A DNA stretch of 60,441 bases from Bacteroidales bacterium (lineage in GTDB: Bacteria; Bacteroidota; Bacteroidia; Bacteroidales; Bacteroidaceae): NCBI GenBank assembly GCA_029227175.1, contig JAQXZK010000153.1:1-60441 (forward strand), read 5' to 3'. The position numbers and the translations under genes were made by a program. Shown piece by piece: positions 42,337-43,791 of this stretch; the stretch's first letter is position 1; each line of letters begins with the position of its first letter. The notes under the pieces are model-generated. The model had not been told where the DNA came from and made no database searches. It saw only the letters and a program-made list of their open reading frames with translations.

Positions 42337-43791
42337 ATGAAATTAGGTGAACTACTGAAGGCGATACGTCCTTTGCAGGTAATCGGCGAGGTGGACGTAG
42401 AGATAACAGGAATAGATATTGATTCCCGTAAGGTTGAGGCTGGACATCTGTTCATGGCGATACGAGGTACGCAGACTGATGGACACGCATACATCCAGTC
42501 TGCCTTGGAAAAAGGTGCGAGGGCTATTTTGTGTGAGGAATTACCAGATGATTTGGCCGATCATGTGACCTAGGTGCAGGTGGCAGATTCGGAAGATGCC
42601 GTAGGAAAGGTGGCTACCAAGTTCTATGGTAATCCGACTAAAAAATTAAAGTTAGTGGGTGTAACGGGAACCAATGGGAAGACGACAATAGCGACGTTGC
42701 TATATAATATGTTCCGCTTGTTCGGTCATAAGGTGGGACTGCTCTCGACCGTTTGCAATTATGTAGATGCAGAGCCGATTCCGACTGATCATACAACTCC
42801 CGACCCCATTACGTTGAACTGTTTGCTGGGCAAGATGGTGGAAGCCGGTTGTGAATATGCATTTATGGAAGTCAGTTCTCATAGTGTTGCTCAAAAACGT
42901 ATCTCGGGATTGCATTTCGCGGGAGGTATCTTCACAAACCTGACGCGAGACCATTTGGATTATCATAAAACGGTGGAGAACTATCTTCGTGCCAAAAAGA
43001 AATTTTTTGACGACATGCCGAAAAGTGCCTTCTGTCTGACCAATCTGGATGACAAGAATGGTATGGTAATGATGCAGAACACGAAGGCTTCGGTTCATGG
43101 CTATTCGTTGAGAACCATCTGCGACTTCAAGGGGCGTGTTCTGGAGAGCCATTTCGAAGGCATGTTGCTCGACTTCAACAACCACGAATTGGCGGTTCAT
43201 TTTATTGGCCGTTTTAATGCCTCTAATTTATTAGCGGTCTTTGGGGCTGCTGTGTTACTCGGCAAGACGGAGGAGGAGGTGCTCGTCGCATTGAGTACGT
43301 TGCATCCTGTTGCCGGCAGATTTGATGCCATTCGTTCGCCACAAGGGTACACGGCTATCGTGGACTATGCCCATACGCCGGATGCACTGATAAATGTATT
43401 GAATGCCATCCACGGAGTGTTAGAGAATGGTAAGGGCAAGATTATCACAGTCGTGGGTTGTGGCGGAAACCGTGATAAAGGGAAACGTCCTATGATGGCT
43501 CAGGAAGCTGTTCGCTTGAGCGACCGTGTCATCATTACCAGTGACAATCCACGCTTTGAGGAGCCTCAGGATATTATCAATGATATGCTGGCGGGTCTGA
43601 AGAAGGAAGACATGATGAAGACGGTAGCGATTGTAGACAGACGCGAGGCTATCAAGACTGCATGTCTGCTGGCTCAAAAAGGTGATGTGATTCTTGTCGC
43701 GGGAAAGGGGCACGAGAACTATCAGGACGTGAAAGGCGTGAAGCATCATTTTGACGACAAGGAAGAGTTGAGAAAGATTATGCAAATCTGA
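42337..43791 (+). pseudogene. murE: murE (UDP-MurNAc-tripeptide ligase) interrupted by an in-frame TAG
   Basis: Read through the TAG at 42571-42573 it gives 484 codons, the normal length. Codons 1-78 hold the UDP-MurNAc-binding domain (FMAIRGTQTDGHAYIQ). Codons 80-484 hold the ATP domain (GVTGTNGKTT near 108, HTTPDPITL near 150) and the C-terminal domain with DNPR near 402, which marks addition of meso-diaminopimelate. The frame is otherwise undamaged, and the residue at the stop is commonly an aromatic in relatives, so TAT or TAC to TAG is the simplest change. TAG ends other genes here (murD, GH18, BRO-N), so the code is not reassigned. MurE is essential; readthrough, restart at the GTG directly after the stop, or a sequence error are all possible. 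Confidence 0.88.
42571..42573 (+). other. in-frame amber codon within murE
   Basis: Context GTG ACC TAG GTG CAG. The GTG after the stop could restart translation but has no Shine-Dalgarno sequence; the 405-residue product would lack the UDP-MurNAc-binding domain. Confidence 0.95.

Follow-up and report, generated by a model that had tools for sequence, protein, structure and literature searches.

The amber codon that interrupts murE in one draft Bacteroides genome is probably a base-level error of that assembly. A miscall, or a base badly resolved in thin or mixed-strain coverage, would have placed a TAG within a normal, working gene; in the living organism, murE would be read as a single 484-residue UDP-MurNAc-tripeptide ligase, as it is in relatives. 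MurE is essential. The gene lies in the window, the whole stretch of 60,441 nucleotides that we analysed, which is contig C153 of a draft genome of 2,875,368 bases in 232 contigs, estimated to be 92.17% complete. The genus is assigned from the closest named relatives, which belong to Bacteroides. The reading frame, its two pieces and the two codons at issue are as follows.

42337..43791, + strand: murE reading frame with one in-frame TAG (translation; Pfam Mur_ligase, Mur_ligase_M, Mur_ligase_C)
42337..42573, + strand: 78-residue N-terminal piece (translation, Pfam)
42559..42561, + strand: codon 75, Asp in the window and Glu in 8 of 8 near-identical proteins; second private difference
42571..42573, + strand: in-frame TAG at codon 79; Tyr in all 8 near-identical proteins, P0002-P0009
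42574..43791, + strand: 405-residue C-terminal piece, whose GTG adjoins the TAG (translation, Pfam)

An otherwise intact murE

Translation of the 484 residue positions yields 78 residues, the TAG at codon 79, 405 further residues and a terminal TGA (43789-43791), all in a single frame. When the two pieces were scanned separately against Pfam, the N-terminal piece matched Mur_ligase and the C-terminal piece matched Mur_ligase_M and Mur_ligase_C; together they supply the N-terminal, middle and C-terminal domains of a MurE ligase. An earlier note on this DNA, made from its letters, had described an otherwise intact 484-codon murE with TAG at codon 79 and no frameshift, and translation and Pfam bear this out: both pieces share one frame, and frame and domain order are intact apart from the TAG. 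The same note had put the stop between the UDP-MurNAc-binding and ATP domains, which is roughly right. Pfam Mur_ligase covers residues 22-68, and the TAG falls near the end of the N-terminal domain, about 30 residues ahead of the P-loop strand. Because murE is plainly recognisable on both sides of the TAG, the stop is not a chance effect of open reading frames.

Compared with MurE, the meso-diaminopimelate-adding UDP-MurNAc-tripeptide ligase, the order of Mur-ligase domains is alike, and the in-frame TAG at position 79 is the sole difference. P0002, one of the intact near-identical proteins, has matches among MurE chains of solved structure (PDB 1e8c is a known example of MurE). In the alignment of near-identical proteins, residues 403-406 read DNPR, known as the DAP signature.

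The gene was found once in its own draft genome. The next match there is a paralogue of only 24% identity at 49417-50121, which sits within murC, a gene that we named by position and domains. A second intact murE, which according to the earlier note would have made the interrupted copy an ordinary pseudogene, was looked for in the draft genome and not found.

Genomic surroundings

MurE sits in a dcw cluster (38825-53887) whose genes, named from their order and Pfam domains, are mraW, ftsL, a gene for a penicillin-binding protein, murE, mraY, murD, ftsW, murG, murC, a gene in the place of ftsQ, ftsA and ftsZ. The protein in the ftsQ place has 244 residues and no Pfam match. Upstream of mraW, the three forward translations of 38060-38824 contain no mraZ-like frame, and the mraZ family (PF02381) has no match anywhere in the genome. 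It is present in 34 of the 41 genus genomes searched, a set that includes our own, and is missing from six others among those 41.

Other features of the window stand apart from the cluster. A tandem array at 27431-27955, built of repeats of about 42 bases (TTTCGGTGGCTTTGTCAGGTTGGCAAAGTGCC...), is divided into two blocks that have diverged; a Na/Ca exchanger gene (28126-29073) lies nearby. A 33-base element (GAATTTGGGATAAGAAATCG...) occurs at 38331-38363 and 59870-59902, outside the chosen frames, with a third copy at the start of contig C203; these are its 3 places in the genome at up to 3 mismatches, against 0 for the reversed control. Between 2517 and 24109 runs a long series of genes that resembles cell-wall sugar recycling, with two NamZ muramidases, transporters, a SIS-domain protein and a protein that joins a beta-lactamase fold to a GDSL lipase.

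The interruption is seen in one of the assemblies examined

We searched about 5.8 billion clustered proteins using the frame as query, with its TAG written as X. Among the best 120 of 7999 scored candidates were eight distinct 484-residue MurE proteins (P0002-P0009) that are 99-100% identical. They represent 6, 5, 1, 2, 1, 1, 1 and 1 contigs, 18 in all, from unnamed sources that are possibly not all independent samples. Aligned with the window, all eight run uninterrupted through a tyrosine at residue 79, and residues 75 and 79 are the only ones at which P0002 departs from the window. One continuous MurE polypeptide, which the TAG denies to this assembly, is therefore present in each near-identical protein; as would be the case for an assembly or sequencing artefact, the interruption is absent from all eight proteins, on 18 contigs of unnamed source.

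The two pieces were also used as queries in their own right. The 78-residue piece drew 62 matches, none above 77% identity and none a short form from the same species. For the 405-residue piece, the best 120 of 7999 candidates held no copy of 405 residues, and the same species was represented among them by the same eight whole proteins only. These are absences from two lists rather than proof, since a gene caller may omit or shorten such pieces.

The wider genus gave a similar picture. MurE was found in 156 of 158 genomes, our own included, and in the 150 listed of 158 match rows the only row with a stop was our own; no stop occurs in the remaining 149, which come from 148 genomes. We then aligned 137 loci from relatives, all of which contained a match, and removed those identical over the first 301 aligned bases. 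In the 119 distinct relatives that were left, the aligned frame contains no stop, and codon 79 is a sense codon throughout (Tyr in 108, Phe in 10, Val in 1). The earlier note had suggested comparing this codon in relatives, and the comparison is unanimous: sense in 119 of 119, and tyrosine in the eight closest proteins. A conserved readthrough or split gene would keep its stop in relatives; here it is kept neither in the eight proteins, nor in the genus rows listed, nor in the 119 relatives. Among the assemblies examined, the interrupted murE is seen in this one alone, and nothing suggests that the TAG is characteristic of the species. The puzzle implied by the earlier note, that an essential gene should persist in split form, is not supported, with eight near-identical proteins whole and 0 of 148 other genus genomes, in the rows listed, carrying a stop.

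Several of these results favour an error: the eight whole proteins together with the absence of a stop from the 148 other genomes in the rows listed, the sense codon at position 79 in every distinct relative, the lack of either piece from the same species among the protein matches listed, and the fact that the interrupted gene is both essential and single-copy. We infer from them a mistaken base and not a private mutation. This is also the option that the earlier note had listed first.

Two private differences and two avoided words

The TAG is accompanied by a second difference four codons upstream, where residue 75 is Asp in the window and Glu in all eight near-identical proteins. Only 1.6% of residue pairs among 484 would fall within 4 codons of each other by chance, so the closeness of the two private differences would be in keeping with a single local event, for instance a poor read. 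Three observations weaken this argument. First, residues 369 and 372, three codons apart, are linked differences by which five of the eight proteins depart from the window, which shows that close pairs arise naturally here. Second, Asp75 is present in P0010, a 93% relative. Third, it is present in 12 of the 119 distinct relatives, and judging by these sequences it may be natural rather than an error.

If it is the third base that is private in each of codons 75 and 79, as least change would have it in a comparison made at the protein level, these two bases create the words GATC and CTAG. Both are depleted in this genome. Against expectations calculated from trinucleotides, the window contains 5 CTAG (64.6 expected) and 50 GATC (225.6 expected); in 22 loci from other contigs of the same genome (56,910 bases), the counts are 17 CTAG (91.4 expected) and 46 GATC (195.1 expected). 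In the relatives, CTAG was under expectation in all 41 loci counted. The gain of both words should be rare in long-selected sequence, and their creation by the private bases favours an error in this respect; a fresh mutation breaks word avoidance equally. We also considered a tract copied from elsewhere as the origin of both bases and rejected it, as the 21 bases at 42559-42579 match nowhere else in the same draft genome at up to 3 mismatches.

Error or private mutation

A clearly less probable explanation, though the strongest competitor, is a real, recent and private nonsense mutation, carried by the sampled strain or by a sub-population whose sequence became the assembler's consensus. Carrier cells would be dying, rare, or sustained by something outside the assembly. 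Asp75 could mark a genuine strain variant of this kind, and other genes sampled from the genome look clean. Against it, a nonsense allele of a single-copy essential gene should be lost, all eight near-identical proteins are intact, none of the 148 other genus genomes in the rows listed shares the stop, and the tRNA search described below found no compensating tRNA.

The gene samples that speak for such a mutation are small. Internal stops were found in 0 of 28 ABC-transporter domain matches and in 1 of 23 SusC-family matches, of which 9 were above the family cut-off and 14 below. The 41 frames of the window were picked as open frames and so form no independent test of the stop rate. The SusC-family match with the stop, an internal TAA, is a partial one below the cut-off, on contig C56 at 1081-1758. 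The assembly shows no sign of gross error and does not look generally poor, which counts against a base-level error to the extent that an isolated one must be assumed for the TAG in murE.

Isolated errors of this type have precedent. Cooley and Wright (2024; PMC11017572) attribute many of the internal stops in publicly available bacterial genomes to assembly errors, and report that they become more frequent at low coverage. That false stops from assembly are common, and that this draft is in 232 contigs, favours an error in murE as well. The present case resembles those described there (PMC11017572) in that a draft genome holds a gene intact but for one internal stop, and its near-identical neighbours are whole. 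It differs in two ways: those genomes came with reads and pipeline annotation (PMC11017572), whereas the TAG in murE is known from the assembly alone, and the two gene families sampled here show few internal stops.

Can the TAG be read?

The remaining explanations require that the cell make MurE despite the TAG. Release factor 1 (prfA) is present in the genome above its curated cut-off, and TAG terminates 4 of the 41 chosen frames in the window:

25709..26557: BRO-N gene
45094..46428: murD
54397..55461: GH18 gene
58099..59352: a further frame

The first three had been named as TAG-ended in the earlier note, which had judged from them that a general reassignment of TAG does not fit; the frames above bear out the first statement, and together with release factor 1 the second. 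Apart from the full prfA, the genome holds an open frame on contig C134 (11252-11833; locus L195) that resembles a release factor, is 199 residues long and matches positions 4-196 of the prfA model, and a third release-factor-like gene.

The Rfam tRNA model found 47 places in the genome, 46 of them above the cut-off. We ran ARAGORN on 41 loci that cover all 47 places; 5 of 30 automatic loci were omitted, their genes lying within others. A tRNA with a CUA anticodon, raised in the earlier note as a possible suppressor, was not found among the 46 tRNA genes that Rfam and ARAGORN gave for this draft genome, which is missing some tRNAs, and ARAGORN saw no tRNA at the sub-threshold 47th place. Neither loss of release factor 1 nor loss of TAG as a stop was seen, and no recoding machinery was found in the assembly. 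With no TAG-reading tRNA, a release factor 1, and other genes ending in TAG, recoding is unsupported.

It is extremely improbable that MurE works as a split or recoded protein, through leaky readthrough of the TAG or through restart at the adjacent GTG with two cooperating pieces. The GTG immediately after the TAG would serve such a restart, and the two pieces roughly match a domain border. The arrangement is absent from every other copy examined, however, no RNA element reaches the Rfam gathering score in the window, and neither piece from another assembly is among the matches listed. In a literature search for murE amber alleles or readthrough, none of the papers listed contains the word murE.

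A suppressor tRNA that makes the stop tolerable in this strain is scarcely credible either. No tRNA for Ala, Ile or Phe was identified by ARAGORN, which makes the set we found incomplete, and a suppressor gene could sit in the missing part of the genome; set against this are the 46 tRNA places without a CUA anticodon, the 47th that is no tRNA, and the presence of release factor 1.

We reject a general reassignment of TAG in view of release factor 1 and the use of TAG as a stop in other genes. Recoding of TAG to glutamine is reported in crAss-like phages (PMC9523058, PMC7886860), and the likeness to these phages of Bacteroidetes is a TAG inside genes. Here, in contrast, the gene is chromosomal, the cell has release factor 1, TAG is an ordinary stop, and no suppressor tRNA was found.

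Nothing specific argues for a functional split, readthrough or a suppressor. Overall, we consider it very unlikely that one Bacteroides strain truly lives with an amber codon in its sole murE, be it by readthrough, by restart at the GTG or by a suppressor tRNA that was not assembled.

Implications

The TAG in murE most likely reflects a mistake in the sequence or a rare private mutation, rather than a new route to MurE. If the base were real, an essential cell-wall gene would be tolerating an amber codon, which would be unusual in nature. As an error, it serves only as a warning: when an essential gene of a draft genome contains a stop, near-identical copies should be consulted before anything else.
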